From positions 1 through 39,143 of the IMG/VR virus record IMGVR_UViG_3300030102_006696: 39,143 bases of DNA, one strand, 5' to 3'. Position 1 is the first letter of the stretch. Every line of letters starts with the position of its first letter. This DNA is from a virus. The notes beneath the pieces were generated by a model that was given only the letters and a program-made list of their open reading frames with translations, ran no database searches and had not been told where the DNA came from. Shown one piece after another: positions 4,059 through 37,440 of this stretch. The position numbers and the translations under genes are program-made.

Positions 4059-4077
4059 CACTCAGGAAGATTTATAG

Positions 4078-11564: not shown

Positions 11565-11576
11565 GACAAGCAGAGG

Positions 11577-11597: not shown

Positions 11598-11645
11598 TAA
11601 TATTAAACTAATTATTGTAGTTTTTTATAGTTATGGGAGTGAAGT

Positions 11646-12650: not shown

Positions 12651-12677
12651 TTTTTTTAAGGAGTTTAGGAGAGTACA

Positions 12678-13715: not shown

Positions 13716-13758
13716 AACTGCTTTTATGGTCCTATATAAGATAGGAGAAGTATAGAAA

Positions 13759-14973
13759 ATGTCTTACAAAAGATTTAATTCCGCTGAAATATTTCATAAT
13801 ACCGTAAAGACTCACCCTAAGTATATGTTCTTCATACATCAGAACAAGACTTATCTGAACAACGAACCACTGCTGGATGGTGAGTATTCGAACAAAATAA
13901 AGCATATTTCAAACCCCGGTCACGTAAGTCTGTACGAGATGAATGTAAACAGACCATCTGACTCGCTGGTATATCCTTTTATAACGAAGGATGGTGCACG
14001 TACTGCATTTTCAACCATCTCCACCTCAAATTTCAATTCTAGTTTTCAATTTGGCGATCAGATTTCAGGTAAATACCCCCACTCTGCAAGTGTGACAAGG
14101 ATCTACATACCTCAAGGTGAAGACTACCAGGCATCAACTTTTGAGCAACCAGCAACAACAGACACAGATAATAAAAAATACATCAGATCCTTGAAGGGTC
14201 CGCTTAGAGAGTACACTCGCATGTCTTCGTATTTTGAGTACTCGTCCTCTTTTGGCAACAAGGGATTTGACATAATGAACATTGTTGGTGTGCCATCTAT
14301 TTTTTACGGATCTCAAATCAAAAAGGGGACGGTAAAATTAAGAACGTATGTAACCGGAACATTAGTTGCTGAAGCACATGACAAGAAGAGCAACGGAGAA
14401 CTCATCGAGACTACTGGGTCTCAGGTTGGTTTAGTTGCGGGAGTAGTGATGTACAACCACGGACTGCTTCTACTCACTGGGTCTTGGAACATGGATACAA
14501 CAAACCAGGAACCGTATATCAACGCAGAGGGCAACTCACGTCCCAAGTGGATTACTTTTGGTGCCGGTATGACCGTTGCAAACAACGCAATAGATCGACC
14601 ACCAGGGGCAACACCAAACACTTCATACGAAATAATTTTTGAGGGTACCAACGAGATACCCACATTGACCATGCTTGCACACGCCGAAAAGGCAGAGATG
14701 AATTTGTCTTCAAATCCCACGTTCATAGAGAAGAGCACGATCAGTCCTGTAACTCTAGCGTCTTCAAGTTACGAACAACCGGCATCAACAATAAGAAACA
14801 TTGCAAAGTCTCCTTACACTAACCACTCTGCGTCTTTTGAGAAACTAACCTATATCACAAAGGTCGGCATTTACGATAAAGACAAGAACCTTATTGGGTA
14901 CGCTACATTGGCAAATCCAGTCAAAAAGCGAGAAAACAGAGATTACACCTTCAAACTCAAGGTCGATTTCTGA
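13759..14973 (+). CDS. Virion structural protein, paralogue of the 12678 gene
   Basis: This 404-aa protein starts at an ATG preceded by AGGAGAAG. It shares the C-terminal box order of the 12678 product (SSNP, YITKVGIY, LANPVKK, terminal KVDF) but has a longer N-terminal half and an insertion of about 25 residues between the SSNP and YIT boxes. That insertion is Ser/Thr/Pro-rich and probably a surface loop. There is no membrane segment or enzyme motif. It is the last gene of the structural block before the nucleic-acid genes. The function is inferred to be structural. Confidence 0.65.
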   Translation: MSYKRFNSAEIFHNTVKTHPKYMFFIHQNKTYLNNEPLLDGEYSNKIKHISNPGHVSLYEMNVNRPSDSLVYPFITKDGARTAFSTISTSNFNSSFQFGDQISGKYPHSASVTRIYIPQGEDYQASTFEQPATTDTDNKKYIRSLKGPLREYTRMSSYFEYSSSFGNKGFDIMNIVGVPSIFYGSQIKKGTVKLRTYVTGTLVAEAHDKKSNGELIETTGSQVGLVAGVVMYNHGLLLLTGSWNMDTTNQEPYINAEGNSRPKWITFGAGMTVANNAIDRPPGATPNTSYEIIFEGTNEIPTLTMLAHAEKAEMNLSSNPTFIEKSTISPVTLASSSYEQPASTIRNIAKSPYTNHSASFEKLTYITKVGIYDKDKNLIGYATLANPVKKRENRDYTFKLKVDF

Positions 14974-17296: not shown

Positions 17297-20200
17297 ATGC
17301 GAATCGGTCATATTGCTGACACACATATACGGAACCTAAAATATCACTATGAATACAATGAAGTATTTGAACAATTATACAAATCCCTAAGAAAGGAAAA
17401 GGTGGACTGCATTGTTCACTGCGGTGACATTGCACATACAAAGACACAAATCTCACCAGAGTTTGTCGACATGGCAAGAGATTTTTTTGCCAATCTTGCT
17501 GCAATTGCGCCAACATATATTATCCTAGGTAACCATGACGGTAACCTGAAGAACGCCAGTCGTCAAGACGCAATCACCCCAATCATAAAGGCAATGGACA
17601 ACGACAACATTCATCTGCTCAAGGACTCAGGCGAGACAAAGATTAATGATAAGTTTTGCCTAAACGTCTTGTCTGTTTTTGATGAGGACAACTGGGTTAA
17701 ACCCTCTGATAAAGAGGTGGTGAATATCGCACTATACCATGGAGCAATTGACAGATCCAAGACGGATTTAAACTGGACACTTGGCGGGGATCATGATATT
17801 GGAATCTTTGAACCCTTTGATTTTGCGTTCCTTGGAGACATTCACAAGACTCAGAAGTTGGACAAAGAGGGTCGAATCTGGTATGCGGGTTCCACCGTGC
17901 AACAAAACTTTGGAGAATCTTTGGACAAAGGGTATTTGCTGTGGGACATCAAGAGTAAGGACGAGTTTAAAAATAAACTCATTACTTTTAAAAACCCTAA
18001 ACCATTTGTAACAGTGACTTTGAATAAGGACGGATCCCTCCCCGACATTGAAGTGCCACCTGGCGCGAGACTTCGCCTTGTGGCAGATTCTAACATTTCT
18101 TTGGATGTGATGAGGAAGAGTGTTGACGTTGCAAAATTTAAGTTTAAACCTGAAAACATTACTTACTTAAATCGCGCCTCGAATTCATTGGTTGATGTGG
18201 ACGCCCCTGCACTAGAACAAGAGGACTTGAGGTCTTTAAAGGTACAAAATAAGTTAATCGGAAATTATCTGAGTGAATATGAGGTCAGCGACGAGATCAT
18301 GGACAAGGTCTTGTCACTGAATTCTAGAGTGAATAGACTGATCGAAGAGTCAGAAGAAGTCTATAGGAACGTCAATTGGAGCATTCAGTCTTTAGAGTGG
18401 GATGGTTTGTTTAATTATGGACAAGGAAACAAGATTGACTTTACCAAGTTGAATGGCATCGTCGGCATTTTCGGTAAGAATTTTTCAGGTAAGTCTTCGA
18501 TTGTTGACAGTTTGCTGTATGCAATTTATAACTCTACTTCAAAGTCAGTAAGAAAGAATCTTAACATAATTAATCAAAACTTGGATGTAGGTCGTGCAAC
18601 AGCGACAATTCGAGTTGGAGATAAAGAGTTTGAGATTAACCGCGTTTCCGAAAAATATGTTAAAAAACTCAAAGGCATATCGACCGAAGAGGCAAAGACT
18701 GATGTTGATTTTGTTTCGACAGACGCTATCGGAAATCAAGAGAGTTTGAATGGAACATCCCGACAGGATACTGACAAGAATATTAGAAAGTATTTTGGAA
18801 CACTAGACGATTTCCTGATGACATCAATGGCATCTCAGTTGGATTCTTTAACTTTTATTAACGAAGGTTCAACAAACCGCAAAAGTATCTTAGCAAAATT
18901 TCTTGATCTTGAAATATTTGACAGAAAATTCAAGATGGCAAAAGAGGAATCCGCGGATATCCGAGGTGCCCTTAGAAGGTTGGAGGGCACTGACTTTGAA
19001 GATCAGATCCAACAAGCGACTCAAGTTTTAAACGAAAAGTATTTAAGATTGGCAAAAAATCAAAAAAGATGCTCAAAATTAGAGTCAGAGATTTCGAATC
19101 TTCAAGAAGAGGTTTCTTTGATATCGGCGAAGGTTGAGTCCGCACCAACTGAATTTATAGACCCAGTAAAACTGCGACGGGAAATAGAAAATACATCGAA
19201 CACGCTAAACAAGATTCAAGTCGCCACCAACGCCTTGAATGTGGAGATAGAGCAGTCTAGGGATAAGCATGAGAAGATTGTAAAATTTATTTCTGAATTC
19301 GACATTGGAGAGTTGGAGGAAAAAAAGAAAAGAATTTTTGAGAATAAAGACCGCCTAGAATCATTGCTGTTGGAACTCAAGACAACCTCTGAGCAGAAAG
19401 ATTTTCTGATCTCCAAGAATGATCTTTTGTGTCCGAAGTGCAAACCACTCATTGAGGAGTGCATACATCAGGCACAGACCGACATGAGTAATTTAAGTGT
19501 CGAGATAAACTCAATGGGAGAATCTTTTAACGACATAGAGCAAAAAAGGGTTATTGATCACATTCAAAAGTTTGACCTATTAAAAGAAAAGCGAGTTCAA
19601 CTTTCGGAGTCCATAACCACCTTGCAACTGTCTATTGATAAGAGTAAGAGTGACGCCTTCAGGGAAGAGACTATTCTAGAAAAATTGACTGGCAAATTGA
19701 AACAGTATGACGACAATCGCGAGGCAATAGAAAATCTCGAACAACTTCTCTTGGAAAAGAGCAGAATCAGTAAATCCATAACTTCTCTGCGGGCAGAGTG
19801 TGATTCCTGCATTTCTTCTACTAATGACTTGTTTAAGGAGGTTGGGTCCGCTGAACAGCGCATTAAGAACTTAGAAGAGAAGCGAAAAGAGTTGGAAGAT
19901 CTCAGATCAGAATTTGCTGCATACGAGTTGTTCATGAGGTGTTGTCACCCAAATGGCATATCGTACAACATCATCAAGAATAGACTTCCAGTGATTAATG
20001 AAGAAATCGCAAAGATTTTAACAGGTGTTGTGGATTTTGAAGTTTTTATTTTGAATGAGGACAAAAAATTGGATATTCTGATCAAGCATCCAAAGTTTGA
20101 ACCTCGTCCTCTTGAAATGGGTTCGGGTGCGGAAAAAACTATTGCATCAATGGCAATTAGATTGGCATTTTTAACAGTGTCGAATTTACCAAAACCGGAC

Positions 20201-20392
20201 CTATTTATTATGGACGAACCTGGAACCGCTCTTGATGAAGACAATATGGAAGGGTTTGTCAGAATAATGGATATGGTGAAAAACTATTTTAAGACGGTTG
20301 TGCTGATTTCTCACTTAGATGCCCTTAAGGACGCTGTGGACATGCAAGTAATGATTGATCGAAAAGATGGTTTTGCTCATATAGAAATCTAG
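17297..20392 (+). CDS. Mre11/SbcD-type nuclease fused to Rad50/SbcC-type ATPase
   Basis: One uninterrupted 1031-aa protein carries both halves of a recombination nuclease complex. The N-terminal ~340 residues have Mre11 metallophosphoesterase motifs: DTH (8-10), GDIAH (43-47), GNHD (78-81), H148 and GDIH (180-183). The C-terminal part has Rad50 motifs: Walker A GKNFSGKSS (393-401), long coiled coils around a zinc hook CPKC (712-715), ABC signature GSGAEK (about 942-947), Walker B LFIMDEP (969-975) and an H-loop SHLD near 1009. In T4 these are separate proteins, gp47 and gp46. The complex resects ends and supports recombination-dependent replication. The start is an ATG with GGAGG upstream, driven by a consensus sigma70 promoter. 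Both halves look catalytically intact. Confidence 0.9.
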   Translation: MRIGHIADTHIRNLKYHYEYNEVFEQLYKSLRKEKVDCIVHCGDIAHTKTQISPEFVDMARDFFANLAAIAPTYIILGNHDGNLKNASRQDAITPIIKAMDNDNIHLLKDSGETKINDKFCLNVLSVFDEDNWVKPSDKEVVNIALYHGAIDRSKTDLNWTLGGDHDIGIFEPFDFAFLGDIHKTQKLDKEGRIWYAGSTVQQNFGESLDKGYLLWDIKSKDEFKNKLITFKNPKPFVTVTLNKDGSLPDIEVPPGARLRLVADSNISLDVMRKSVDVAKFKFKPENITYLNRASNSLVDVDAPALEQEDLRSLKVQNKLIGNYLSEYEVSDEIMDKVLSLNSRVNRLIEESEEVYRNVNWSIQSLEWDGLFNYGQGNKIDFTKLNGIVGIFGKNFSGKSSIVDSLLYAIYNSTSKSVRKNLNIINQNLDVGRATATIRVGDKEFEINRVSEKYVKKLKGISTEEAKTDVDFVSTDAIGNQESLNGTSRQDTDKNIRKYFGTLDDFLMTSMASQLDSLTFINEGSTNRKSILAKFLDLEIFDRKFKMAKEESADIRGALRRLEGTDFEDQIQQATQVLNEKYLRLAKNQKRCSKLESEISNLQEEVSLISAKVESAPTEFIDPVKLRREIENTSNTLNKIQVATNALNVEIEQSRDKHEKIVKFISEFDIGELEEKKKRIFENKDRLESLLLELKTTSEQKDFLISKNDLLCPKCKPLIEECIHQAQTDMSNLSVEINSMGESFNDIEQKRVIDHIQKFDLLKEKRVQLSESITTLQLSIDKSKSDAFREETILEKLTGKLKQYDDNREAIENLEQLLLEKSRISKSITSLRAECDSCISSTNDLFKEVGSAEQRIKNLEEKRKELEDLRSEFAAYELFMRCCHPNGISYNIIKNRLPVINEEIAKILTGVVDFEVFILNEDKKLDILIKHPKFEPRPLEMGSGAEKTIASMAIRLAFLTVSNLPKPDLFIMDEPGTALDEDNMEGFVRIMDMVKNYFKTVVLISHLDALKDAVDMQVMIDRKDGFAHIEI

Positions 20393-22377: not shown

Positions 22378-23964
22378 ATGGCATTCAAACTAACAAAAAA
22401 AGAAATGATGAGGGAGATTGTCAAATGTGGCAAAGATCCCTCTTATTTCATAGATAATTACGCAAAAATTTCCCATCCACAAAAGGGACTGATACCCTTT
22501 CGACTTTTCCCATATCAAAGGGACTGCTTACATGATTTTGAACAATTTCGATTTAGCGTAATCCTCAAGGCAAGGCAGTTAGGCATATCTACTATTACCG
22601 CTGCTTATATAGCGTGGTTGATGATGTTCCATAAGGAAAAGACTGTAGTTGTTGTCGCGACCAAACTAAGCACAGCAACTAATTTAGTCAAAAAAGTCAA
22701 GACTATAATGAAAAATCTTCCGTCTTGGGTGCAGATCTCTAAAGTGTCAGTGGACAACAGAACCTCTTTTGAATTGTCTAACGGTTCTTTGATTAAGGCG
22801 TCATCTACTTCTGGTGACGCTGGTCGTTCAGAGGCGCTAAGTTTGCTGGTCATAGACGAAGCAGCGTACGTGGAAGGTTTATCGGAACTGTGGTCCGGTT
22901 TGTATCCAACGCTTTCTACTGGTGGTCGTTGCATCGCCCTATCAACACCAAATGGTGTTGGTAATTGGTTCCACAAGACATATACAGACGCTGTTCAGAA
23001 GTCTAATGATTTCTATGCCATCAAATTGCCGTGGGATTGTCATCCTGATCGAGATCTTGCTTGGTTTGAAAAAGAAACAAAAAACATGTCGCGACGTGAG
23101 ATTGCACAAGAATTGGAGTGCAACTTCAACATGTCAGGTGAAACTGTTTTCCATGGCGAAGATATCGACAGAATGTTGTCAGACACAGGAGATCCAGAGT
23201 ATCGCACCGGGCATGATAGAAATTTTTGGATTTGGAAAAGGACCGATCCCGCAGGCACATACATGATATCTGCAGATGTTGCCCGAGGCGATGGCAAAGA
23301 TTATTCTGTTTTTCATGTCTTTGATCTTGCAAGTATGGAAATCGTCGCAGAATATCAGGGCAAAGTGACACCAGATGTTTTCTCTCAGGTGCTTTTTGAT
23401 GCTGGTCGTGAATACAACGATTGTATGTTGGTAGTGGAAAACAACACTGTTGGTTATGCTGTTCTAGAAAAATTAAGAGAGAAGGATTATCCTAACATCT
23501 ATTATTCAATAAAGTCGACTCACGAGTATATAGATCAATATCGCGGTGAGCACATGTCAAACGCTATAGCGGGTTTTTCCATGACCCAAAAGACTAGACC
23601 CCTAATCATAGCAAAACTAGAGGAATTCGTGAGAAACAAACTAATTAAAGTAAATTCTGTTCGATTACTGAATGAAATGAAAACATTTATATGGAACAAT
23701 GGTCGCGCTGAAGCAATGAGATCCTATAATGATGACCTTGTGATGTCATGTGCGATTGGTTGCTGGGTTAGGGACACGGCACTGGTTGAGAATCGAAGAG
23801 AAATTGAATATAAAAAGGTTTTCTTAAATTCTATGTCTAAATCGTCTACAATATTAAATACAACAATTCCAGGAATGCAGGGGTACAAAGAAGTGAAGAA
23901 AACCAAGGCACTCGACAAACACAAGAAGAACATTGAAGAATATTCCTGGTTGTACAAAGGGTAA
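22378..23964 (+). CDS. terL: Terminase large subunit, T4 gp17-like
   Basis: This 528-aa protein is the motor and nuclease that packages DNA. The ATPase half has a Walker A-like KARQLGIST (64-72, the terminase type of loop), Walker B LLVIDE (156-161, Asp160, Glu161) and the coupling motif STPNG (189-193). The nuclease half has the three acidic positions of the RNase H-like fold: SADVARGDGKDYS (Asp300), VVENN (Glu354) and YNDDLVMS (Asp452-Asp453). The length is somewhat shorter than T4 gp17 (610 aa). The stop is four bases before the portal ATG. A small terminase subunit is not recognisable in the window. Confidence 0.93.
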   Translation: MAFKLTKKEMMREIVKCGKDPSYFIDNYAKISHPQKGLIPFRLFPYQRDCLHDFEQFRFSVILKARQLGISTITAAYIAWLMMFHKEKTVVVVATKLSTATNLVKKVKTIMKNLPSWVQISKVSVDNRTSFELSNGSLIKASSTSGDAGRSEALSLLVIDEAAYVEGLSELWSGLYPTLSTGGRCIALSTPNGVGNWFHKTYTDAVQKSNDFYAIKLPWDCHPDRDLAWFEKETKNMSRREIAQELECNFNMSGETVFHGEDIDRMLSDTGDPEYRTGHDRNFWIWKRTDPAGTYMISADVARGDGKDYSVFHVFDLASMEIVAEYQGKVTPDVFSQVLFDAGREYNDCMLVVENNTVGYAVLEKLREKDYPNIYYSIKSTHEYIDQYRGEHMSNAIAGFSMTQKTRPLIIAKLEEFVRNKLIKVNSVRLLNEMKTFIWNNGRAEAMRSYNDDLVMSCAIGCWVRDTALVENRREIEYKKVFLNSMSKSSTILNTTIPGMQGYKEVKKTKALDKHKKNIEEYSWLYKG

Positions 23965-23967
23965 AAG

Positions 23968-25944
23968 ATGGCAGATCAAACAAAAAACGCAAAAAATTCA
24001 GAAAACATACTTTTTCGCCGACTTACAAAGTTACTATCGGGTCCAATTGTCGCGAGAAGAACTCAGACAGGACGCAGACTTAGAAGAATTGATCTAGATA
24101 AATACGCCAGTCGGTTTAGGTCTGCCAGTGGAAAGCAATTCAAGAAGACAGCATATGACCCATTTTCAAATATCCAAGCAAACGTCATGGCAAATCAGCA
24201 CCGCGCCGAACGCTATGTTGATTTTGATCAAATGGAGTACACCCCGGAAATTGCATCCGCATTAGACATATACGCAGACGAGATGACAACTAGTTCCCAG
24301 TTAAGACCACTGATCAATATAGATTGCGCAAACGAAGAGATAAAGTCTGTCTTAAATGCCCTGTATTATAATATACTAAACATTGAATACAATCTTTTTG
24401 GTTGGTGTCGGACCATGTGTAAGTACGGAGACTTCTTTCTATACTTAGATATCGATGAGCAACGTGGCATACAGTCCGCCATCGGTCTCCCAACTCCAGA
24501 AATAGAGAGACTAGAGGGCGAAGACAAGACAAATCCAAACTATACACAATTCCAGTGGAACACTGCCGGTTTAACTTTCGAGAACTGGCAAATGGGGCAC
24601 TTTAGGATTTTAGGAAACGACAAGTACGCCCCTTACGGCAGTTCAGTTCTAGAACCAGCACGCCGCATTTGGAGACAAATGACCTTGCTTGAGGATGCTA
24701 TGATGGCATATCGTATCGTTAGGTCCCCAGAACGCCGAGTATTTTATGTAGATGTTGGCAGTATTCCACCCGATGACGTTGAGCAATACATGCAAAAGAT
24801 AATGACTCAAATGAAAAGACACCAGGTTGTCGACCCGGATACTGGTCGCGTAGATCTACGATACAATCCGCTTTCAATCGATGAGGATTACTTTATTCCA
24901 ACCCGTGCAGGACAGAATTCAAGAGTAGAAAGTCTACCAGGTGGGTCTTATACGGGCGATATTGACGACGTCAAGTATTTGAGAGACAAGTTGTTCTCAG
25001 CGCTCAAGGTACCAAGATCTTATCTCGCCCAGTCAGACGACGCTGCAGAGGATAAGACCACCTTGGCACAGAAGGATATTAGGTTTGCCCGCACAGTTCA
25101 AAGGTTGCAACGCTCAGTTATAACTGAATTGGAAAAGATCGGCATTGTGCACCTATATGTCTTAGGTTTTCGCCAGGATGACTTGGTGTCCTTTAAGATC
25201 TCTTTGAACAACCCTTCAAAGATCGCAGAGATGCAGGAACTGGAACACTGGAAGACTAAGTTTGACGTCGCTGGCGCTGCAACAGAGGGATTCTTCAGTA
25301 GAAGATGGATTACCAAGAAGTTGTTTGGTATGACTGACGAAGAGTTCGTCAGGAATCAGCGCGAGATGTTCTATGACCGTAATTTTGATGCACAATTGGA
25401 GGCGGTAGGAGAACTTGTACAGGCAGAGGCATCGAAGGACCTTCCTGCTGACTCGTTTGAGGATACTGGAGATTTGGACACCGGTGAAGAAGGTGGGGAT
25501 TTTGGAGATATCGAAGGCATGGAAGATCCGGGTGGAGAAGCACCAGAGGATGACGTGCTTCCAATTCAACCTCCTGGCAGTCGCTGGACTCAACGAGAGA
25601 AGGATAAAATGAGGGGCAAGACGACTTTTGAAGATGGTTCGACAACAACTGCTCGATCAAAAGGCAAAAAGTATAAACCCGTTAAAAGTAGTTCAAATTC
25701 CTTTGGAGCGCAACAAAGATCTACAAAGGGGTCTTGGAACAACGAGATAACTAAAAATACTACAAGGAACATCAGCAAAGGTGCATCTGATCTCTCAAGA
25801 CTTGCAAAAGGCAGTATTACTGAGAAAAAGCAGACTAATTATAAAGAGGAAGAGAAGAGGATAATGGAAACAAATAGAGAGGTTTCCATGCTCATTGAGA
25901 CATTGAATCTAAGGAGTGAAAAGCATGAGACTAAAGCACAATAA
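23968..25944 (+). CDS. Portal protein, T4 gp20-like
   Basis: This 658-aa protein follows TerL directly, as expected for a portal, the dodecameric ring at the head vertex through which DNA passes. Recognisable gp20-like stretches include EIASALDIYADE (the N-terminal wing), DFFLYLDID, YGSSVLEPARR followed by LLEDAMMAYRIVRSPERRVF, YNPLSIDEDYFIPTR and KVPRSYLAQSD. The C-terminal ~180 residues (after about 480) are acidic, Gly/Glu/Asp-rich, then Lys/Ser/Thr-rich, so probably flexible. T4 gp20 is 524 aa, so this is longer by its tail. Its 3' end overlaps the next gene by 20 bases. Confidence 0.92.
   Translation: MADQTKNAKNSENILFRRLTKLLSGPIVARRTQTGRRLRRIDLDKYASRFRSASGKQFKKTAYDPFSNIQANVMANQHRAERYVDFDQMEYTPEIASALDIYADEMTTSSQLRPLINIDCANEEIKSVLNALYYNILNIEYNLFGWCRTMCKYGDFFLYLDIDEQRGIQSAIGLPTPEIERLEGEDKTNPNYTQFQWNTAGLTFENWQMGHFRILGNDKYAPYGSSVLEPARRIWRQMTLLEDAMMAYRIVRSPERRVFYVDVGSIPPDDVEQYMQKIMTQMKRHQVVDPDTGRVDLRYNPLSIDEDYFIPTRAGQNSRVESLPGGSYTGDIDDVKYLRDKLFSALKVPRSYLAQSDDAAEDKTTLAQKDIRFARTVQRLQRSVITELEKIGIVHLYVLGFRQDDLVSFKISLNNPSKIAEMQELEHWKTKFDVAGAATEGFFSRRWITKKLFGMTDEEFVRNQREMFYDRNFDAQLEAVGELVQAEASKDLPADSFEDTGDLDTGEEGGDFGDIEGMEDPGGEAPEDDVLPIQPPGSRWTQREKDKMRGKTTFEDGSTTTARSKGKKYKPVKSSSNSFGAQQRSTKGSWNNEITKNTTRNISKGASDLSRLAKGSITEKKQTNYKEEEKRIMETNREVSMLIETLNLRSEKHETKAQ
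25911..25916 (+). promoter_or_regulatory. Ribosome binding site deciding the start at 25925
   Basis: AAGGAG lies 8 bases before the ATG at 25925, which is ideal spacing. A GTG at 25916 is in frame three codons earlier but overlaps this site, so 25925 is the better start. Confidence 0.7.
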
Positions 25945-27629: not shown

Positions 27630-27714
27630 AATTCGATGGATGATGCGCCCCGTTGCAAGGTGTTGCAGAGGGAAGATACCGATGCGGCGGGACGCCGCAA
27701 AGAGAGAGTTATAA
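27613..27714 (+). CDS. Short basic ORF coupled to the protease gene (33 aa)
   Basis: An ATG five bases after AAGGAG opens a 33-codon frame rich in Arg and Lys (8 Arg, 3 Lys, 2 acidic), starting MRPLTKIRWMMRPVARCCRG. Its TAA stop (27712-27714) overlaps the ATG of the protease gene at 27714 as TAATG, the standard layout for translational coupling. It overlaps the end of the membrane-protein gene by 17 bases. It may be a real microprotein (for example a prohead-core peptide) or a leader whose translation loads ribosomes onto the protease start. No family is recognisable. Confidence 0.45.
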   Translation: MRPLTKIRWMMRPVARCCRGKIPMRRDAAKREL

Positions 27715-28319
27715 TGAAGATTTTAAGAGAGTATTATGAACTTTGTGAGGGCGGAATCTGCTCCGACCTATTAACTGAAGACGAAAAGATCCGCGTTGCA
27801 AACGGTGCACTGATCTTATCTGGGGTTATGCAGATGTCAGAAACCCTAAATGGTAATGGCAGAGTTTATCCCCACAAGGTACTCATGAGAGAAATAGAAA
27901 ACTATCACAAACTCGTAAAAGAAAGAAGAGCAGTGGGCGAGTTGGACCACCCCGACGATTCAGTTATAAATTTGAAAAACGCCTCTCATGTTGTCACAGA
28001 CATTTGGATGGAAGATAACAAAGTTATTGGAAAAATCGAAGTCCTACCAACCCCCTCGGGTCAGATCTTACGCAGTCTCGTGGAGTCTGGAATTAAGATG
28101 GGTATTTCATCTAGGGGGATGGGGTCCGTACAGGAGTCAAATGGCAAAGTGGTTGTACAAGACGACTTTCAACTGATTTGTTTTGATATGGTTTCTGAAC
28201 CATCGACTCCCGGCGCTTTCATGATGAAAGAGGCGAAGCAAATCCCAAACATCTATACAAAGGCAGACAAGATCAATAGATTGATGAACGATATCTTGTC
28301 AACAAGGGGAGAGAAATGA
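27714..28319 (+). CDS. Prohead protease, T4 gp21-like (peptidase family S77 type)
   Basis: From the ATG at 27714 the protein is 201 aa. It has the gp21 signature: MQMSETLNGNGRVYP (39-53), the catalytic His in GELDHPDD (His79) and the catalytic Ser in GISSRGMGS (Ser132 or Ser133). In T4 this enzyme is part of the prohead core, becomes active after assembly, and trims scaffold and capsid proteins at sites of the form Leu/Ile-x-Glu. An in-frame ATG at 27636 would add 26 residues but has no Shine-Dalgarno, and its codons overlap the short ORF, so 27714 is preferred. The stop overlaps the next start (ATGA). Confidence 0.9.
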   Translation: MKILREYYELCEGGICSDLLTEDEKIRVANGALILSGVMQMSETLNGNGRVYPHKVLMREIENYHKLVKERRAVGELDHPDDSVINLKNASHVVTDIWMEDNKVIGKIEVLPTPSGQILRSLVESGIKMGISSRGMGSVQESNGKVVVQDDFQLICFDMVSEPSTPGAFMMKEAKQIPNIYTKADKINRLMNDILSTRGEK

Positions 28320-28954
28320 AAATCTTAGTTGAAAATGAGAGATTAGAAGAAATTATTGATGACATCTTGATTGAAGAGATCTTGCAAGAACTGATTGGCA
28401 ATCCATTTTCTTCGTCTTCCGCACCCACTTCTGGAAGAATGGGTTCTGGTCGCCGCAAGAAGGCAGGACTTTCTCCTTTGCCTGGTGAAGAACCTGCGGC
28501 AAAACCTGGGTTTCTTGCACGCTTGGGTCAAAAGTTGGGAATTGGAAAGGACTGGGAAAAAGAGGTTGAAAAACTATCAGACGTTGAAAAGGAGCAAGAC
28601 TTTGCTAAACCTTTCGACGAAGAACCACCCCCTGTTCAAGGACTTGAGACAGGTCAGTGGATACCTGAACCTGGATCTGTGTATGCTTACATTACAAAAA
28701 CTGGTAAGAGGGCGATCCTAAAGGTGCTGGGCGGCACGTTTGGAAATGACGCTCGTGGCAAAGCGAGTCTATCAGTTCAAAGGATTGGTCCTGGGTATGC
28801 AAACCGTGGAGTTTTAGGTGTCAAGCAACTTACAGATCGATTGCGCGGCAAGTTTGATGACGAAGAAACCGCTCGCAAGGCGCTGGCACTATCCGTGGCA
28901 GCAACCATGCAGGAAGTTAGACAAAGAATTAAAGAAAACTTGAGGAACAAATGA
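28316..28954 (+). CDS. Head-module protein of unknown function (212 aa)
   Basis: The ATG, with GGGGAGAG upstream, overlaps the protease stop by four bases. The 212-aa protein begins with an acidic helical stretch MKILVENERLEEIIDDILIE, followed by a Ser/Gly/Pro/Lys-rich linker (about 30-70) and a C-terminal domain (about 110-212) with EPGSVYAYITKTGKRAIL, which looks like a small beta domain, then a helical tail. The N-terminal region contains possible gp21-type Leu-x-Glu sites. A role as a head-core or internal protein is plausible from position; no family is recognised. Confidence 0.6.
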   Translation: MKILVENERLEEIIDDILIEEILQELIGNPFSSSSAPTSGRMGSGRRKKAGLSPLPGEEPAAKPGFLARLGQKLGIGKDWEKEVEKLSDVEKEQDFAKPFDEEPPPVQGLETGQWIPEPGSVYAYITKTGKRAILKVLGGTFGNDARGKASLSVQRIGPGYANRGVLGVKQLTDRLRGKFDDEETARKALALSVAATMQEVRQRIKENLRNK

Positions 28955-29357: not shown

Positions 29358-29588
29358 ATGGGTAGAAGAACTCCAGTAAACGTACAGGTAAAGATAAACC
29401 ATCCAGATCAAACTATGAGGATGATCAAGAGGTTTGCAAAGAAAGTTAAGAAAAGCGGAATACTAGATGAAGTCCGTGCAAAGGAATATTATGAGAAACC
29501 TTCCGCACGCAGGAGGCGCGAAAAAAAGAAGAGAGAGCGCGTTCTAAAGAAACTTCAACAAGAAAGAGACAACAAGTACAAACAGTAG
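29358..29588 (+). CDS. rpsU: Ribosomal protein bS21 homologue
   Basis: From the ATG at 29358 the protein is 76 aa and very basic. It carries the bS21 signature: MRMIKRFAKKVKKSGILDEV (residues 20-39), then RAKEYYEKPSARRRREKKK (40-58), matching the RRFKR...G-L-E-R...EFYEKPS-xRKR core of bacterial bS21. A short N-terminal extension (GRRTPVNVQVKINHP) replaces the usual first strand. bS21 binds the 30S platform next to the anti-Shine-Dalgarno and is needed for initiation on natural mRNAs; viral copies are known. A TTG at 29337 is in frame but lies inside the upstream gene without support. The gene lacks a good Shine-Dalgarno and is probably coupled to the gene ending two bases before. Confidence 0.85.
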   Translation: MGRRTPVNVQVKINHPDQTMRMIKRFAKKVKKSGILDEVRAKEYYEKPSARRRREKKKRERVLKKLQQERDNKYKQ

Positions 29589-29630
29589 TCTATTAAAATT
29601 CAAAATACCGTTCTTTTTGCAAAAAAAATA

Positions 29631-29641
29631 ACTATTTATTA
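29631..29641 (+). promoter_or_regulatory. Candidate late promoter element ACTATTTATTA
   Basis: This lies in the 103-base gap before the scaffold gene, 50 bases ahead of its ATG. The same 11-base pattern ACTATTTANTA occurs at 32670 and 33189, each in the gap before a head gene. It is not the T4 late motif TATAAATA in the forward direction, although its reverse complement contains TAAATA. The promoter function is inferred from recurrence and position. Confidence 0.4.
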
Positions 29642-29657
29642 AGAATACAAGTATTCT
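29642..29657 (+). repeat. Inverted repeat AGAATAC-AA-GTATTCT
   Basis: Two perfect 7-base arms are separated by AA, directly after the ACTATTTATTA element. The spacer is too short for a normal RNA hairpin, so a protein-binding site is more likely than a terminator. It could also be chance in AT-rich DNA. Confidence 0.3.
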
Positions 29658-29691
29658 CATAATTTTTTGATATTATTTTAGGAGAAAGAAA

Positions 29692-30777: not shown

Positions 30778-32601
30778 ATGTCTATTTTGCAAAAGCTTAC
30801 AGAAGGCGTTGTGAATCGTGATGTCTCCAAGGAAGGTGCTGCTCTTCTTGAGAAGTGGCAGGCAACCGGTCTCCTCGAAGGTCTCAGTGATGACAACAAA
30901 GCACAAGGCATGGCAGTACTACTCGAAAACCAAGCAAAGGAACTTCTCCGTGAATCTTCCTCAATGGCTAGTGGTGATGTAGAGGGTTTTGCTGCTGTTG
31001 CTTTCCCAATCGTTCGTCGTGTATTCGGCGGTTTGATCGCTAATGATCTAGTTTCAGTTCAACCAATGAGTCTACCAAGTGGTCTCATTTTCTTCCTTGA
31101 CTTTACCAAGTCCACGGAAGTTCGACCACAGTCAGCAGGATCTGGACAATCTGTCTATGGTGGTAACGTTGTGGGTAGAAACATCCAGACCGGTGTTGAC
31201 CTTGATGGTCAGGCCACTTCTGAGTCAGGTGAACCTGGTGGTTTCTACGGATTGGCAACTGGTTACTCTCACGCAACCGGTTCCCTCGCTGCCGCCGATA
31301 ACGGTGGACTTCAATTTAGCAACACGCCTGTCGTTGGTGCCCTAGCTGATGGTGGTAAGTTGGTTTCTGCACTTACTGAAGCAGAAAAGAAGGTTATCCA
31401 GTATGATCCAGACATTCTTGCAATGGGATCTACCGCAAGAGTTTTGGTTTTGGACAGTCTTGAGGACGCCACGACCATTTTGCCAGGTTTGAACACAGAC
31501 GCACTTCAGGCAATCGAACTTCAGCGCGATGGTACAACCAAGGCAATTACGATCTTTGATGATGCCACCGGCGACCTTATGGACACTGGTGTACTTCATA
31601 TTCGTCGTTTAACATCTATTGTTAGTAGCAAACTTCGTCTTGTTTTGGTTAACCCAGCAGGCGTGGTTAAGACAGACGGAGCGGCCGCCCTTGAAGGTGG
31701 TGCCAATAAAGATAACTTTGGTGTGCATTTCCCAGTTGCAGACAACTTTGTCGTTGCAGGTTCACATGCTATCGGCGGTGTAAAGGGTTCTTCCACTGCA
31801 CCAGATTGGAATCTTGAATTGGAAGGTGGAATGGCAGAGATCGACATCAAGGTTGATAGTATTGCCGTGACAGCGATGACCAAGAAGTTGAAGGCAAAGT
31901 GGTCCCCAGAATTGGGTCAGGACCTCAACGCTTATCACAATCTTGACGCTGAAGTTGAGTTGACCGGTATTCTTTCTGAGCAGATTGCTCTTGAAATTGA
32001 CCGTGAAATTCTTTCCGACTTGGTTAAGGGCGCAACCGCCGGTACTCGTTACTGGAGTCGTGCACCAGGTCTTTTCGTTGACAGTAATGGTGCGGAACTC
32101 GGCGCAACCGCTGCCGCTCCAGACTTCACTGGCACTGTTAGCGAGTGGTACGAGACTCTCATTGAGACAATCAATGACGTAAGTGCTCAGATCCACCGTA
32201 AGACGCTTCGCGGTGGTGCAAACTTTGTTGTTTGTTCCCCAGAAGTCGCTAACATCCTTGAGTTTACCGCAGGTTTCCGCGCAAGCGTTACTGCTGACTC
32301 AGACCGTGGACAGATTGGTGCACAGAATGTTGGTTCCTTGAGTAAGAAGTTCGACGTTATGGTCGATCCTTACTTCCCACGTAACGTGATCCTCGTTGGT
32401 CGCAAGGGCAACTCCTTCTTGGAGAGCGGATACGTCTACGCCCCTTATGTGCCACTACAGGTTACTCCTACGATCTTCGGAACGGAAGATTTCGTACCAC
32501 GTAAGGGCGTCATGACTCGCTATGCGAAGAAGATGGTTCGTCCTGACATGTACGGTCTCGTTATCGTCCGAGGTCTCTTGGGAGAATCAGGCGGCAACTA
32601 A
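30778..32601 (+). CDS. Major capsid protein, T4 gp23-like
   Basis: This 607-aa protein starts at an ATG with a strong AGGAGG. gp23-like features are the N-terminal region LLEKWQATGLLEGL and VLLENQAKELLRE, the motif FPIVRRVFGGLIANDLVSVQPMS (compare T4 MVRRAIPNLIAFDICGVQPM) and the C-terminal FPRNVILVGRKG and VPLQVTPTIF. The Leu57-Arg58-Glu59/Ser60 site fits the protease consensus, so the first 59 residues are probably removed on maturation. It is longer than T4 gp23 (521 aa), with extra sequence in the middle. Codons look more uniform than in its neighbours, as expected for a highly expressed gene. A strong terminator follows. Confidence 0.93.
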   Translation: MSILQKLTEGVVNRDVSKEGAALLEKWQATGLLEGLSDDNKAQGMAVLLENQAKELLRESSSMASGDVEGFAAVAFPIVRRVFGGLIANDLVSVQPMSLPSGLIFFLDFTKSTEVRPQSAGSGQSVYGGNVVGRNIQTGVDLDGQATSESGEPGGFYGLATGYSHATGSLAAADNGGLQFSNTPVVGALADGGKLVSALTEAEKKVIQYDPDILAMGSTARVLVLDSLEDATTILPGLNTDALQAIELQRDGTTKAITIFDDATGDLMDTGVLHIRRLTSIVSSKLRLVLVNPAGVVKTDGAAALEGGANKDNFGVHFPVADNFVVAGSHAIGGVKGSSTAPDWNLELEGGMAEIDIKVDSIAVTAMTKKLKAKWSPELGQDLNAYHNLDAEVELTGILSEQIALEIDREILSDLVKGATAGTRYWSRAPGLFVDSNGAELGATAAAPDFTGTVSEWYETLIETINDVSAQIHRKTLRGGANFVVCSPEVANILEFTAGFRASVTADSDRGQIGAQNVGSLSKKFDVMVDPYFPRNVILVGRKGNSFLESGYVYAPYVPLQVTPTIFGTEDFVPRKGVMTRYAKKMVRPDMYGLVIVRGLLGESGGN

Positions 32602-32629: not shown

Positions 32630-32664
32630 CCCCCTTCATTAATTTGGAGGGGGTTTTTGTTTTT
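32630..32664 (+). terminator. Rho-independent terminator after the major capsid gene
   Basis: CCCCCTTC (32630-32637) pairs with GGAGGGGG (32646-32653), an 8-base stem with one G-T pair and the loop ATTAATTT, followed by TTTTTGTTTTT. This is a strong intrinsic terminator and would end or reduce the capsid transcript before the 124-aa gene. Confidence 0.85.
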
Positions 32665-32669
32665 CTAAA

Positions 32670-32680
32670 ACTATTTAGTA
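32670..32680 (+). promoter_or_regulatory. Candidate late promoter element ACTATTTAGTA
   Basis: This second copy of the ACTATTTANTA pattern is placed just after the capsid terminator and 66 bases before the ATG of the 124-aa gene. A new promoter is expected here because the upstream transcript ends at the terminator. Confidence 0.45.
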
Positions 32681-33121: not shown

Positions 33122-33150
33122 GTAATTAACTCGCCTTATCAATAGAATCA

Positions 33151-33184
33151 ACCCTAAGTCTTATGACTTGGGGTTTTCTATTTT
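33151..33184 (+). terminator. Rho-independent terminator after the 124-aa gene
   Basis: ACCCTAAGTC (33151-33160) pairs with GACTTGGGGT (33165-33174), a 10-base stem with one G-T pair and a TTAT loop, followed by TTTCTATTTT. This is a strong intrinsic terminator. Confidence 0.85.
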
Positions 33185-33188
33185 GTAC

Positions 33189-33199
33189 ACTATTTACTA
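33189..33199 (+). promoter_or_regulatory. Candidate late promoter element ACTATTTACTA
   Basis: This third copy of ACTATTTANTA lies immediately after the terminator and 26 bases before the ATG of the Lys/Thr-rich gene. Again a promoter is expected here because the terminator isolates the downstream genes. Confidence 0.45.
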
Positions 33200-33225
33200 T
33201 GACCATTTAGTTAAAGGAGTTTATA

Positions 33226-33564
33226 ATGGGAAAGCGTAGAAAAAGATTAACAATGGATAAATATGCCAAGAAGTATGTGAAGTTAAGAGCAGCACTGTTT
33301 GGAAAAAAAGAAGAGGTTGTTGAGGATTTGACGGAGGTAGTTAAAAAGGTCAAGAAAGTCTCCCCTTCAGCACTAAAAGAAATTGTAACAAATACAGAAG
33401 AAACCACCACAGAAGACACTTCTAAGACAGAGGATGTTACAACGAATACAACGACTAAGACTACAACTAAAAAGTCTACCACAAGGGCAAACAAGACCCC
33501 TACTGCCACAAAGAAGGCAACAACCACTAGGAAGAAGACTACTAGAAAAAGAACTAAGAAATAA
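33226..33564 (+). CDS. Lys/Thr-rich histone-H1-like protein
   Basis: An ATG after AAAGGAG starts a 112-aa protein in three parts: a basic N-terminus (MGKRRKRLTMDKYAKKYVKL), a mixed charged helix (about 25-55), and a long low-complexity tail (about 55-112) of Thr, Lys, Arg and Ala that becomes strongly basic after residue 78 (TTRKKTTRKRTKK at the end). Such tails bind DNA in histone H1-like and AlgP-like bacterial proteins. In a phage capsid operon it could be an internal DNA-condensing protein or a capsid-bound factor. The function is inferred from composition only. Confidence 0.6.
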   Translation: MGKRRKRLTMDKYAKKYVKLRAALFGKKEEVVEDLTEVVKKVKKVSPSALKEIVTNTEETTTEDTSKTEDVTTNTTTKTTTKKSTTRANKTPTATKKATTTRKKTTRKRTKK

Positions 33565-33653
33565 TCCTGAGAACAAAAAAATCAGTTTCGGTGTTTAGTG
33601 TAGGTTACAACTAATTATATTTGACTAGATTTTAACTTAGTGAGGATTAATTA

Positions 33654-34928
33654 ATGTCTTTACCCACTTTGACACCAGCATCAACAGTGAGCGCCATCGT
33701 ACTTCCCGTCACAGGGACTACTACGGATGTAAACTCACTCGTTCCCTATAAGGTATATTCAGATCCTACGGCACCACTTTATTCAGTTGATTTTTTATCA
33801 GGTGCAACTGAACAAGTTGCTTATGTTTATAAGAAACTTGGTGGTGACATCCTAGACATTGAATTAACAACAGGGAATATATACTCTGCCTATGAGGAGG
33901 CGTGCTTAGAGTATTCTTATCTTATTAACGTTCACCAAGCAAGCAATGTTTTGTCCGATGCTCTTGGTAACATGACGGGCACTTTTGACCACAAGGGTGA
34001 AATCAAGACAGGAGAGTTGAGTTCTTCTCTTGGTGGCACTCATGTTGCCTTGAAATATCCAAGGTTTGAGTATGGAACTACAAGAAGAGTCCTAGAAGGA
34101 GTTTCCGCTGAAGCAGGACTTGGACACTCCGTGGAGTATTCTGCTTCATTTGATGTAACTCCTGAAAAGCAAGATTACGATTTGCAGCAAATCATCTCAA
34201 CCGCCACGGGTGTTCCCTACCAAGGAAACTTGGCAGGCAAAAGAGTTTCGATTAAAAGGGTATTTTTCAAGACACCACATGCAATGTGGAGGTTTTATGG
34301 ATATTACGGTGGTTTAAATGTTGTCGGTAATTTGAGTAATTATGGACAATTTTCAGACGCTTCGACTTTTGAATTGGTACCAACATGGCAGAATAAATCT
34401 CAGGCGTTGGCGTTTGAAGATGCAATCTACACTAGGGCATCTCACTATTCATACGAGTTGAAGGACAATAAGATAAGATTGTTTCCACAACCAACAACAG
34501 GTGGACCATCTAAAATGTGGGTTCAGTTCTCTGTTCCAAGAGATGCCTTCATGTCGTCCAGTGCCAGTGACACTACAATGGATGGAATCAATAATCTGAA
34601 TACCTTGCCTTTTGGCAACTTGCCATATGGAAATATAAACTCAATTGGTAAGCAGTGGATTAGAAGGTTCGCACTTTCCTTGTCTAAGGAGATGTTGGGT
34701 CAAGTACGCTCTAAGTTTAGCACTGTGCCTATCCCAGGAGAGTCCGTCACTTTAAACGGTGGCGATTTGATTGCTCAGGCAAGAGAGGAACAGGAAAGAC
34801 TAAGAGAGGAACTAAAGGTAACATTATCAGATCTTACCTATGCTAGACTTGCCTCAATCGATGCAGAGAAGGTTGAAGCAAGCGAAAAGGTGGTTCAGAG
34901 AATACCAGTTAATATTTTTGTAGGATAG
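33654..34928 (+). CDS. Neck / head completion protein, T4 gp13-like
   Basis: This 424-aa protein starts at an ATG with GAGG upstream. The N-terminal part YVYKKLGGDILDIELTTGNI matches VILRRLGAPIINVELTPDQV of T4 gp13 in order. The C-terminal part, with ALSLSKEMLGQVRSKFSTVP, GGDLIAQAREEQERLREEL and the final NIFVG, matches ALAKELNGQILARHQG, GQRLIEEARLEKEALREEL and the final GILVG of gp13. gp13 joins the portal after DNA packaging. The protein is longer than T4 gp13 (309 aa), with an extended N-terminus and middle. It is followed by gp14- and gp15-like genes in the T4 order, which supports the call. Confidence 0.85.
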   Translation: MSLPTLTPASTVSAIVLPVTGTTTDVNSLVPYKVYSDPTAPLYSVDFLSGATEQVAYVYKKLGGDILDIELTTGNIYSAYEEACLEYSYLINVHQASNVLSDALGNMTGTFDHKGEIKTGELSSSLGGTHVALKYPRFEYGTTRRVLEGVSAEAGLGHSVEYSASFDVTPEKQDYDLQQIISTATGVPYQGNLAGKRVSIKRVFFKTPHAMWRFYGYYGGLNVVGNLSNYGQFSDASTFELVPTWQNKSQALAFEDAIYTRASHYSYELKDNKIRLFPQPTTGGPSKMWVQFSVPRDAFMSSSASDTTMDGINNLNTLPFGNLPYGNINSIGKQWIRRFALSLSKEMLGQVRSKFSTVPIPGESVTLNGGDLIAQAREEQERLREELKVTLSDLTYARLASIDAEKVEASEKVVQRIPVNIFVG

Positions 34929-34946
34929 GCATAGGAGTTTTATGAA

Positions 34947-35435
34947 ATGAGTGACAACAAGTGGACACAACCAGATAATCCTCCACCCCCAATGTTTACA
35001 GGCAAAAAAGAAAAAGACCTTGTAAAGCAAGTAAATGATGAAGTCATTGAACGGGTCATAGGACAGACAGTAATCTATTATGCAATCAGTACGGAACATA
35101 CAGATTACAATGAAGTCTATGGAGAAGCGATAGTAAAAAACTTTTACAACCCTATAAGGGTACATGCACTAGTCAAGTGGGACTCACAAGAGACGACCAC
35201 TACAGGACTTGGTGTTGATAGGATCGAAAGAATAACTGTTTATTTTCATAAAAGAAGGTTGACAGAAGATCAGAATTTGTTTGTTAGAGAAGGAGACTTT
35301 ATTTTGTTTGGAGACAGGCACTATGAAATCCTTACCCTTCAAGAACCAAGGTGGTTGTTTGGTCAAGTAGAGAGTTCATTTGAGATTATGGCGACTTGCG
35401 TAAGAGCAAGAGAGGGACTGTTTGATGCGACCTGA
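34947..35435 (+). CDS. Neck protein, T4 gp14-like
   Basis: This 162-aa protein has AGGAG upstream of its ATG. Its middle has YYAISTEHTDYNEVYGEAIV, resembling the YYVPREYVSPDLIFGEDLK stretch of T4 gp14. REGDFILFGDRHYEILTLQE followed by PRWLFGQ resembles [20 protein letters not shown] followed by PYDPFYQLGQ. gp14 forms the neck with gp13. It is shorter than T4 gp14 (256 aa), lacking the C-terminal part. It lies between gp13- and gp15-like genes, as in T4. Its 3' end overlaps the next gene by 11 bases. Confidence 0.75.
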   Translation: MSDNKWTQPDNPPPPMFTGKKEKDLVKQVNDEVIERVIGQTVIYYAISTEHTDYNEVYGEAIVKNFYNPIRVHALVKWDSQETTTTGLGVDRIERITVYFHKRRLTEDQNLFVREGDFILFGDRHYEILTLQEPRWLFGQVESSFEIMATCVRAREGLFDAT

Positions 35436-36690
35436 AGATTGTGTTTTAGATACAAAGAAAATACCTTTTCCACCATCTACAATTCAAAATGTGGATAGTG
35501 CAATGCTTGTCTATATGTTGGAGACGATGTCTATATTCACATCAACCAACAAAGGGTGGTCAAAGGTTCCAGTGATTTGGTCTTCTGCTGAAAGGGCATT
35601 TCAGTCTAAAAGAGGTCAGGAAATAAGAGACAAGCAGGGAACTCTGGTGTTGCCAATTATAACTATTGAAAGAGAGTCGGTAGTAAAAGATCCCAATAGA
35701 AAGGGAACTATTCAGGGCAATGCCCTGCCGGAAGATGATGAGAAGGGTGGTGTTATTCCTATTGCAAGAGAAATAAACCAGGAGAAGACTACAATATTTA
35801 CAAACGCTGATACTAGAAGGTTGACAGGAGGAAAGATTAACTTTCCTACTCCACCAGATAATAAGATAGTGTACTCAACGGTGACTATTCCTTTGCCGGT
35901 TTATGTTACTGTAACCTACAATGTCAAGATCAGGACAGAATATCAGCAACAGATGAATGATATCATTACCCCGTTTGTCACTCGTCCGGGTGGAGTAAAT
36001 TACATTAATCTAATCAACAATGGTCATAGATATGAAGGGTTCATACAGCAAGACTTTGCTCAAAATAATAATTTAAACAACTATACAAATGAAGAAAGAA
36101 GTTTTGAAACGAACATAAAGATCGACGTGCTTGCTTATCTTATAGGTGACGACAAGAATCAAATTAAACCCAATTTTGTTTATAGAGAGAACGCTGTAGA
36201 AGTAAAGATTCCTAGAGAAAGAATTACTTTGGGCGAGATACCTGATCACGAAAATGGCGAGTACTATGGTTTATCAGGGATCAATCTTCCTCATGATTGT
36301 CCTCCTCATCTTAATCCGTTCTTTTCTCCATTTTCAAACGTCCCTGCTGCTGGCACAAGCAGATCAGGAACTCAGAATATAACCATTCTTACGAGCAGAG
36401 GCACAGGTGCAGGCGTGCAGTCTGATGAAGTCATGACAATTGTGCAAGACAATTTTGTGATTAGAGAATTTCTTAAACAAGCAGATGATGCGCTGCCTGG
36501 AGATAACAAAACCTTTACCACTGCTAACAATATTGCCAGCAACACAGAGACTATTTTTATCAATGGTTTGTTGGCAACAGCAGGTGCATCTGGAGACTAT
36601 ACTGTGGTTGGGACTAACAAGATTGTCTTTAACGAGGCAGATTTTCTTTTAGCTGATGATATAATATATGCGTCTTATCTCAAGGGATAA
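35425..36690 (+). CDS. Tail completion / sheath stabiliser, T4 gp15-like, with C-terminal extension
   Basis: The start is the ATG at 35425, inside the end of the gp14-like gene (a TTG at 35422 is in frame but less likely). The 421-aa protein matches T4 gp15 in order: KVPVIWSSAERAFQSK (RVPITYASKEHFMMK), LVLPIITIERESVVKD (ILPRINLHLVDF) and TYNVKIRTEYQQQMNDIITP followed by F (YELSIFTRYEDDMFQIVEQI). gp15 caps the tail tube and binds the neck. T4 gp15 is 272 aa; here a C-terminal region of about 75 residues, with KTFTTANNIASNTETIFING then GDYTVVGTNKIVF, resembles a small fibre-type beta domain. This appears to be an added module. Confidence 0.8.
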   Translation: MRPEDCVLDTKKIPFPPSTIQNVDSAMLVYMLETMSIFTSTNKGWSKVPVIWSSAERAFQSKRGQEIRDKQGTLVLPIITIERESVVKDPNRKGTIQGNALPEDDEKGGVIPIAREINQEKTTIFTNADTRRLTGGKINFPTPPDNKIVYSTVTIPLPVYVTVTYNVKIRTEYQQQMNDIITPFVTRPGGVNYINLINNGHRYEGFIQQDFAQNNNLNNYTNEERSFETNIKIDVLAYLIGDDKNQIKPNFVYRENAVEVKIPRERITLGEIPDHENGEYYGLSGINLPHDCPPHLNPFFSPFSNVPAAGTSRSGTQNITILTSRGTGAGVQSDEVMTIVQDNFVIREFLKQADDALPGDNKTFTTANNIASNTETIFINGLLATAGASGDYTVVGTNKIVFNEADFLLADDIIYASYLKG

Positions 36691-36705
36691 CATTTAGAAT
36701 TTCGT

Positions 36706-36717
36706 AAGAATATTCTT
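36706..36717 (+). repeat. Perfect palindrome AAGAATATTCTT
   Basis: This 12-base perfect palindrome lies in the 88-base gap after the gp15-like gene. It shares the half-site AAGAATA with the inverted repeat at 29642. It could be an operator or simply chance in AT-rich DNA. Apart from a GGAGAG ribosome binding site near its end, I see nothing else in the gap. Confidence 0.3.
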
Positions 36718-36778
36718 CTGTGTTTGATTCCACTACATACTAATTAAATCATATTACAACGATGGAGAGTTTACGGAA

Positions 36779-37006
36779 ATGAGTGAAGCAGAAAATTATA
36801 TTACAAGTGATATCGGCATTGCAGCATACTTGCAACTGTCGGGAATTAAGTTGGTCAAATGTACGAGACTGGAGAACGGAAAGTTCTATTTTGAGTTTGA
36901 GGACAAGGACCAAACATGCAAAATGAAGTCTTTAGAGTTTTTAGATTCTGATTTTTGTAAGTTCGATAATATTGTTAGAAATCTTAAAAAGATTCTTTTT
37001 TCATGA
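36779..37006 (+). CDS. Small DUF5659-like protein (75 aa)
   Basis: An ATG with GGAGAG upstream starts a 75-aa protein. The N-terminal pattern YITSDIGIAAYLQLSGIKLV followed by KCTRLENGKFYFEFED fits DUF5659: a Thr/Ser-Asp before a helix with A-x-L, a Gly-Ile-x-L turn and an F-x-F-x-D strand. Members are small proteins common in phages and of unknown function. No membrane segment is seen. Its stop overlaps an upstream in-frame ATG of the next gene. Confidence 0.6.
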   Translation: MSEAENYITSDIGIAAYLQLSGIKLVKCTRLENGKFYFEFEDKDQTCKMKSLEFLDSDFCKFDNIVRNLKKILFS

Positions 37007-37012
37007 GGAGGT
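37006..37012 (+). promoter_or_regulatory. Ribosome binding site deciding the start at 37021
   Basis: AGGAGGT lies 8 bases before the ATG at 37021. An in-frame ATG at 37003 would put this site inside the gene, so 37021 is the better start. Confidence 0.75.
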
Positions 37013-37020
37013 GTTTTGCA

Positions 37021-37440
37021 ATGAGTATATTAAATAAATTAAGAGATCTTGTCGCTGCTATGGAATCTGGTGAAAAAGGAGAATCAAATGAGGATATCAA
37101 AGATATCATAGATCAAATTTCCGAATCTCAAATGGTAGAAAATGAGAAAGAAGAAGAAATTGAAGAACTGCCATCCCACATAGAGTGCAGTGTAGAAGAG
37201 ACCAAGGCAGTGCTACTGTACAGAGAGCACGCCAAAAATGCTAAAACTAAATTGGCAGAACTTTTTATTGATTTTGAAAAGAAAAAGAATTTTCTTTTAC
37301 AAGAAATTGCCAAAGGTGATTCTGGTTTTTATAAAAGTTTGAATGATTTGAGAGAGGCATATGGAATTCAACAAGATGACCAATACAGTGCCTTGATCCC
37401 AGACTCAAACGAAGGCACCATTGCTTTCGAAAAAGAATAA
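37021..37440 (+). CDS. Acidic protein of unknown function (139 aa)
   Basis: The start is chosen at the ATG 37021 because of the AGGAGGT at ideal distance. The 139-aa protein begins MSILNKLRDLVAAMES and is rich in Glu, Asp and Lys. Residues about 60-100 look like a coiled coil, with KAVLLYREHAKNAKTKLAEL then FIDFEKKKNFLLQE. The C-terminus has GFYKSLNDLREAYGI. No enzyme motif, signal peptide or membrane segment is seen. It sits between the gp15-like gene group and the fibre-like gene. The function is unknown. Confidence 0.6.
   Translation: MSILNKLRDLVAAMESGEKGESNEDIKDIIDQISESQMVENEKEEEIEELPSHIECSVEETKAVLLYREHAKNAKTKLAELFIDFEKKKNFLLQEIAKGDSGFYKSLNDLREAYGIQQDDQYSALIPDSNEGTIAFEKE

Follow-up and report, generated by a model that had tools for sequence, protein, structure and literature searches.

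A bS21 gene kept beside a partner gene in the head cassette of uncultivated T4-like phages

The entry of a viral bS21 into 70S ribosomes was already published by Mizuno et al. (2019), who found that the protein of HTVC008M, a T4-like marine Pelagibacter phage, is incorporated into E. coli ribosomes and that ribosomes carrying it retain about 5% of normal in vitro translation (PMC6375957). As a ribosomal protein, bS21 exchanges readily (PMC6375957), and F. johnsoniae ribosomes without it differ in initiation (PMC9976891). The position of bS21 beside head genes is likewise established: Chen et al. (2022) described hundreds of phages with bS21 beside prohead protease and capsid genes, expressed late and co-transcribed with structural genes (PMC9723584). 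The HTVC008M gene, in contrast, lies at 91228 beside hsp20, and that of PA5oct beside clpX, both away from head genes, which indicates that the head-gene setting is not needed for bS21 function.

Here we analysed a virus record of 39,143 bases (the window), in which an earlier note had recognized a small bS21 gene within the capsid assembly genes. The encoded protein (MGRRTPVNVQVKINHPDQTMRMIKRFAKKVKKSGILDEVRAKEYYEKPSARRRREKKKRERVLKKLQQERDNKYKQ) is a genuine bS21 homologue, and its match is well beyond chance. It scored above the cut-offs of both Pfam PF01165 (E=1.6e-12, 47.4 bits, cut-off 27) and NCBIfam TIGR00030 (E=1.1e-10, 41.1 bits, cut-off 28.95), and it also matched PHROG 21469 'ribosomal protein S21' (2.9e-11) and solved bS21 chains (best E 1.4e-8). 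A profile built from 38 bS21 relatives reached the solved chains at 7e-14, and all 38 diverse relatives scanned matched PF01165 and no other family. The AlphaFold model (mean pLDDT 87) has helices at residues 18-33, 35-43 and 48-75, with the two main helices around the Y/F-E-K-P core expected of bS21, here YYEKPS. Foldseek returned no significant match for this model, probably because the chain is small and helical; a plant mitochondrial ribosome chain, 6xyw_Bs, stood at rank 6 (E 8.9, TM 0.5-0.6). Among the relatives K47 is invariant. Purifying selection acts on the gene: over 65 usable pairs, with high dS, the median dN/dS was 0.08. The frame read on the minus strand of the same interval contained two in-frame stops and no feature of interest.

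Table 1. Features of the head-gene region, in window positions
Feature	Position	Strand	Evidence or remark
Terminase large subunit	22378..23964	+	PHROG 2, 3.5e-53
gp20-type portal	23968..25944	+	PF07230 5e-82
gp21-type prohead protease	27636..28319	+	PF03420 5.5e-29; PHROG 207 4e-54
212-aa gene, between protease and g134	28316..28954	+	BLAST match only in the nearest relative, L001
g134, 134 aa	28951..29355	+	Helical, no known family; 2-nt gap before bS21
Phage bS21 gene, 76 aa	29358..29588	+	ATG at 29358, stop ends at 29588; PF01165, TIGR00030, AlphaFold helices
Gap from bS21 to scaffold-position gene, 103 nt	29589..29691	+	Intergenic
Promoter-like motif ACTATTTATTA	29631..29641	+	Copy of the repeated ACTATTTANTA
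Probable scaffold, 355 aa	29692..30759	+	Named by its position before the capsid gene
gp23-type major capsid protein	30778..32601	+	PF07068 9e-72
Intrinsic terminator after capsid gene	32630..32653	+	Stem-loop kept in L001

The order of genes is terminase, portal, three genes of 282, 187 and 104 aa, gp21-type protease, the 212-aa gene, g134, bS21, the scaffold-position gene and the gp23-type capsid gene. Thus the placement among head genes given in the earlier note stands, with the protease and two small genes before bS21, although the 355-aa product that follows had no convincing family match and owes the name scaffold to its position only. bS21 lies within ten genes of the protease, portal, terminase and capsid genes, as in the head-gene type of Chen et al. 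(2022). Their freshwater Bacteroidota jumbo phages (PMC9723584) share with the window a bS21 among terminase, portal, protease and capsid genes, a conserved hypothetical neighbour, an N-terminal helix unlike the cellular form and a proposed late role. However, in the five clades of that study bS21 is on the strand opposite to the structural genes, whereas in the window and its relatives it is on the same strand, in the window directly after g134.

A similar arrangement was found in an isolate, Microcystis phage Mel-JY01 (PP395634), where RpsU occupies the same slot on the same strand in the order terminase, portal, protease, 154-aa gene, RpsU, two further genes, scaffold-position gene and capsid. 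Its RpsU has both K29 and K31, as in the window bS21, but is only about 30% identical to it, and g134 could not be recognized in the gene that precedes RpsU (hhalign probability 2%). Flavobacterium phage immuto (NC_055915), whose terminase (42% identity) makes it one of the nearest isolates, has the same head-gene order; neither bS21 nor g134 was found in its head-gene region.

The scans of the window for Rfam families and for tRNAs came back empty. Two strong intrinsic terminators, the one in Table 1 and another at 33150-33175, flank a 124-aa gene after the capsid gene, and L001 has kept the two stem-loops. Compared with L001, the neck-region proteins encoded from 33654 onward show 96-100% identity and most terminase-to-capsid proteins 66-92%; a recombination boundary relative to L001 lies just 3' of the capsid genes (window about 33200-37440 compared). 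At 17297-20392, a single 1031-aa ORF fuses an SbcD/gp47-like phosphoesterase (residues 1-169) to an SbcC/gp46-like ATPase (residues 332-1026), and full-length relatives of this fusion occur in Mel-JY01 and in a 484-kb uncultured phage. Beside replication genes, the interval 3-14973 encodes three very large proteins (1351, 1098 and 1085 aa) and four mid-size ones, none of which had a Pfam or PHROG match.

We then measured how constant the bS21 locus is by two scans of viral contigs, anchored on g134 and on the protease, so that bS21 was used in neither. bS21 was present in 80 of 80 loci found through g134. The protease anchor added 79 new loci, of which 60 had both g134 and bS21, 5 had g134 only and 14 had neither. 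In these 19 exceptions the sequence after the protease is short: less than 1 kb in 14, 1.2-1.8 kb in 4 and 2.6 kb in the longest, L200, where g134 is present and no bS21 was seen. Because a few contigs turn up in both scans (L139/L232 and L172/L247 are examples), the counts depend partly on each other. g134 and bS21 lie within 200 nt of each other on the same strand in 134 of 145 pairs, with a median gap of about 16 nt, and in the other 11 they are 0.6-5.9 kb apart with order and strand kept. The order protease, bS21, capsid gene on one strand was kept in all 54 loci that show the three, and each of 12 large records had exactly one bS21. In the protease-anchored set, bS21 distances follow those of TerL (Spearman 0.62) about as well as g134 distances do (0.60), indicating that bS21 is inherited with the head cassette. 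In a large group of T4-like relatives, bS21 is a fixed constituent of long standing. A special co-evolution of g134 with bS21 (first Spearman 0.41) was dropped once more control genes had been added: given TerL, the partial correlation in the protease-anchored set was 0.26 for g134-bS21 and 0.23 for another head gene, so that co-occurrence alone stands.

g134 had no convincing match in Pfam, PHROG, PDB or isolates, and its model (pLDDT 66) was too weak for a fold search. Its sequence was read against the T4 prohead protease consensus and cleavage rule. We found two conserved hydrophobic-x-E-G sites in g134 that resemble this consensus (82% and 87% conserved) and a similar site in the capsid protein N-terminus conserved at 100%, while bS21 contained no hydrophobic-x-E-[AGSNC] site and so lacks the N-terminal cleavage site of T4 internal proteins. 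This distribution suggests that g134 belongs to the head core and argues against packaging of bS21 in the T4 manner. It also bears on the idea that bS21 itself belongs to the virion or prohead core, a small basic protein that, like T4 internal proteins, is packaged with the DNA for the next cell or condenses it inside the head. Such a role would suit a very basic protein encoded between the protease and the scaffold-position gene, next to a partner with protease-like sites, and encapsidation was raised by Chen et al. (2022) (PMC9723584). We nevertheless consider it quite unlikely, since bS21 would have no cleaved targeting peptide of the T4 type, and the family match retained by every scanned relative, together with K47, is what would be expected of a ribosome binder.

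The earlier note had further proposed that the bS21 sequence could help to identify the host, and this was not borne out. A first genome scan with the bare protein as query gave no bacterial relative and was repeated with an alignment. The best identity to a bacterial bS21 was 37% over the aligned length, and the tree separated the phage lineage from the bacterial sequences except for one weakly placed row (L127). A single clade for phage bS21 was not rejected (p-AU 0.49), at the low resolution given by 75 columns. The HTVC008M protein grouped with bacterial sequences (support 100/94), in line with its placement with alphaproteobacteria by Mizuno et al. (2019) (PMC6375957), but the window bS21, 28% identical to it, did not group with it. 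From its position in the tree, outside all sampled Pseudomonadota bS21, the window bS21 is not a recent host capture, and it is therefore of no use as a host marker.

Two other features touch on the host. Bacteroidota ribosomes ignore Shine-Dalgarno sites (PMC9976891), whereas the window phage is rich in them, and this is one difference from the Bacteroidota phages of Chen et al. (2022). Those phages also have an aromatic residue at the position of F. johnsoniae Tyr54, which is R61 in the window (alignment offset to 7jil); an aromatic at aligned positions 60-62 was found in only 2 of 124 phage relatives. Together, the high Shine-Dalgarno use and the missing aromatic argue weakly for a host outside the Bacteroidota.

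The N-terminal helix departs from that of bacterial bS21 by a change of charge. We compared 124 distinct phage bS21 of the lineage with 110 distinct bacterial bS21, mostly from Pseudomonadota. Position 31 (window numbering) is basic in 124/124 phage and 3/110 bacterial sequences, where E dominates; position 29 in 122/124 and 15/110; and position 21 in 120/124 and 0/110. Positions 29 and 31 are both basic in 122 of the phage proteins against 3 of the bacterial ones. The window residues are R21, K29 and K31, and K31 is missing from the bS21 of HTVC008M, PA5oct and E. coli. The N-terminal helix of phage bS21 lies over the anti-Shine-Dalgarno and is the site of divergence in the phages of Chen et al. 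(PMC9723584), so the change reads as a further case of this published trend, now with specific residues. Its near-universal occurrence suggests a changed, and not merely copied, function. This weighs against a plain replacement, in which the phage protein would make good a lost or limiting host bS21 and complete 30S subunits with no preference among mRNAs. The ready exchange of bS21 (PMC6375957) and the different initiation of F. johnsoniae ribosomes that lack it (PMC9976891) would both agree with replacement; given the charge change, we see only a slim chance for it.

A Shine-Dalgarno-like site of -4.5 kcal/mol or stronger precedes 74% of window genes, compared with 18% of random places. The site of the capsid gene (-10.9 kcal/mol) was the strongest measured in the window, that of the scaffold-position gene reached -7.3 and that of bS21 -3.4 kcal/mol; among relatives, the -4.5 kcal/mol threshold is reached by 72% of bS21 genes. 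The genes running up to bS21 either overlap or leave almost no space between them. The 2-nt spacing from the g134 stop to the bS21 start, together with the weak site of bS21 itself, suggests that its translation is coupled to that of g134.

The 103-nt gap after bS21 contains a copy of ACTATTTANTA. This motif has three copies in the window (0.08 expected), each in a gap before a gene: the one in Table 1, before the scaffold-position gene, and those at 32670-32680 and 33189-33199. Across 2.06 Mb of related loci, the gene strand had ACTATTTA in 392 distinct contexts, compared with a median of 52 and a maximum of 166 for 60 sampled permutations; the opposite strand had 14. Of 450 copies, 230 fell outside predicted genes, in gaps that account for only 10% of the sequence. 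A copy stood no more than 150 nt upstream of the scaffold-position gene in 32/46 loci and of a neck gene in 19/34, but of the capsid gene in 0/55 and of bS21 in 2/139. By this distribution ACTATTTA looks like a candidate lineage-wide promoter element, perhaps a late one. The T4 late promoter TATAAATA was absent from the window, and a search of the literature for a motif of the ACTATTTA type gave nothing judged relevant from titles and abstracts.

Because the promoter-like motif stands between bS21 and the scaffold-position gene, bS21 is probably the last gene of the upstream transcription unit and does not have to be on the same mRNA as the capsid protein. No strong terminator was found in the gap; read-through from bS21 into the scaffold-position and capsid genes may occur. 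The suggestion that bS21 is made when capsid mRNAs are translated therefore holds in part: late translation fits the published systems (PMC9723584, PMC6375957), but the motif-bearing gap separates bS21 from the genes for the scaffold-position and capsid proteins.

Family match, gene position, conservation, purifying selection, charge change and Shine-Dalgarno-rich genes all support a role on the ribosome. We infer that the window bS21 is incorporated late, by exchange, and with preference for phage messages. In detail, it would be translated after g134 from a head-gene mRNA, probably by coupling, and would replace or supplement host bS21 on 30S subunits during the assembly phase. There it would take the usual place of bS21, next to the anti-Shine-Dalgarno end of 16S rRNA, and the extra-basic N-terminal helix (R21, K29, K31) would strengthen the binding of mRNAs whose Shine-Dalgarno sites are strong, the phage capsid mRNA being one. 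That a working bS21 enters host 30S subunits late and favours the Shine-Dalgarno-rich mRNAs of the phage is, in our judgement, reasonably probable.

Some observations count against this reading. The promoter-like motif separates bS21 from the capsid gene, and HTVC008M and PA5oct carry bS21 away from head genes. The loss of translation with HTVC008M bS21 (PMC6375957), the only functional test of a viral bS21 found, fits poisoning as well as tuning, or plain incompatibility. This drop makes host shut-off the main rival: a phage bS21 in ribosomes would mainly lower translation in the host and would not actively favour phage messages, and an N-terminal helix consistently unlike the cellular form would agree with that. 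We regard shut-off as unlikely, however: the phage depends on host ribosomes to make its late proteins, genes for shut-off are mostly early ones while bS21 lies among head genes, and the published loss may reflect incompatibility with E. coli. Returning to preference for phage messages, a more elaborate version joins the two neighbours in one module, in which g134 would act as an escort for bS21, either to the ribosome or into the head, while the fixed basic helix (K29, K31) would re-tune the 30S platform for Shine-Dalgarno-rich phage mRNA. We give this module a small chance; if true, a large T4-like lineage would have a defined ribosome variant specific to phages.

The fixed pairing with g134, the diagnostic charge change and the promoter-like motif were not found in the cited literature. 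Collectively, these data present phage bS21 as a stable and old member of the head cassette across a large uncultivated T4-like group. They provide handles on it in the partner gene and in three residues that mark the phage form, on the helix closest to the anti-Shine-Dalgarno region. The promoter-like element bears on whether bS21 is produced with or apart from the capsid protein. The diagnostic residues make the idea of specialised phage ribosomes directly testable by mutation.
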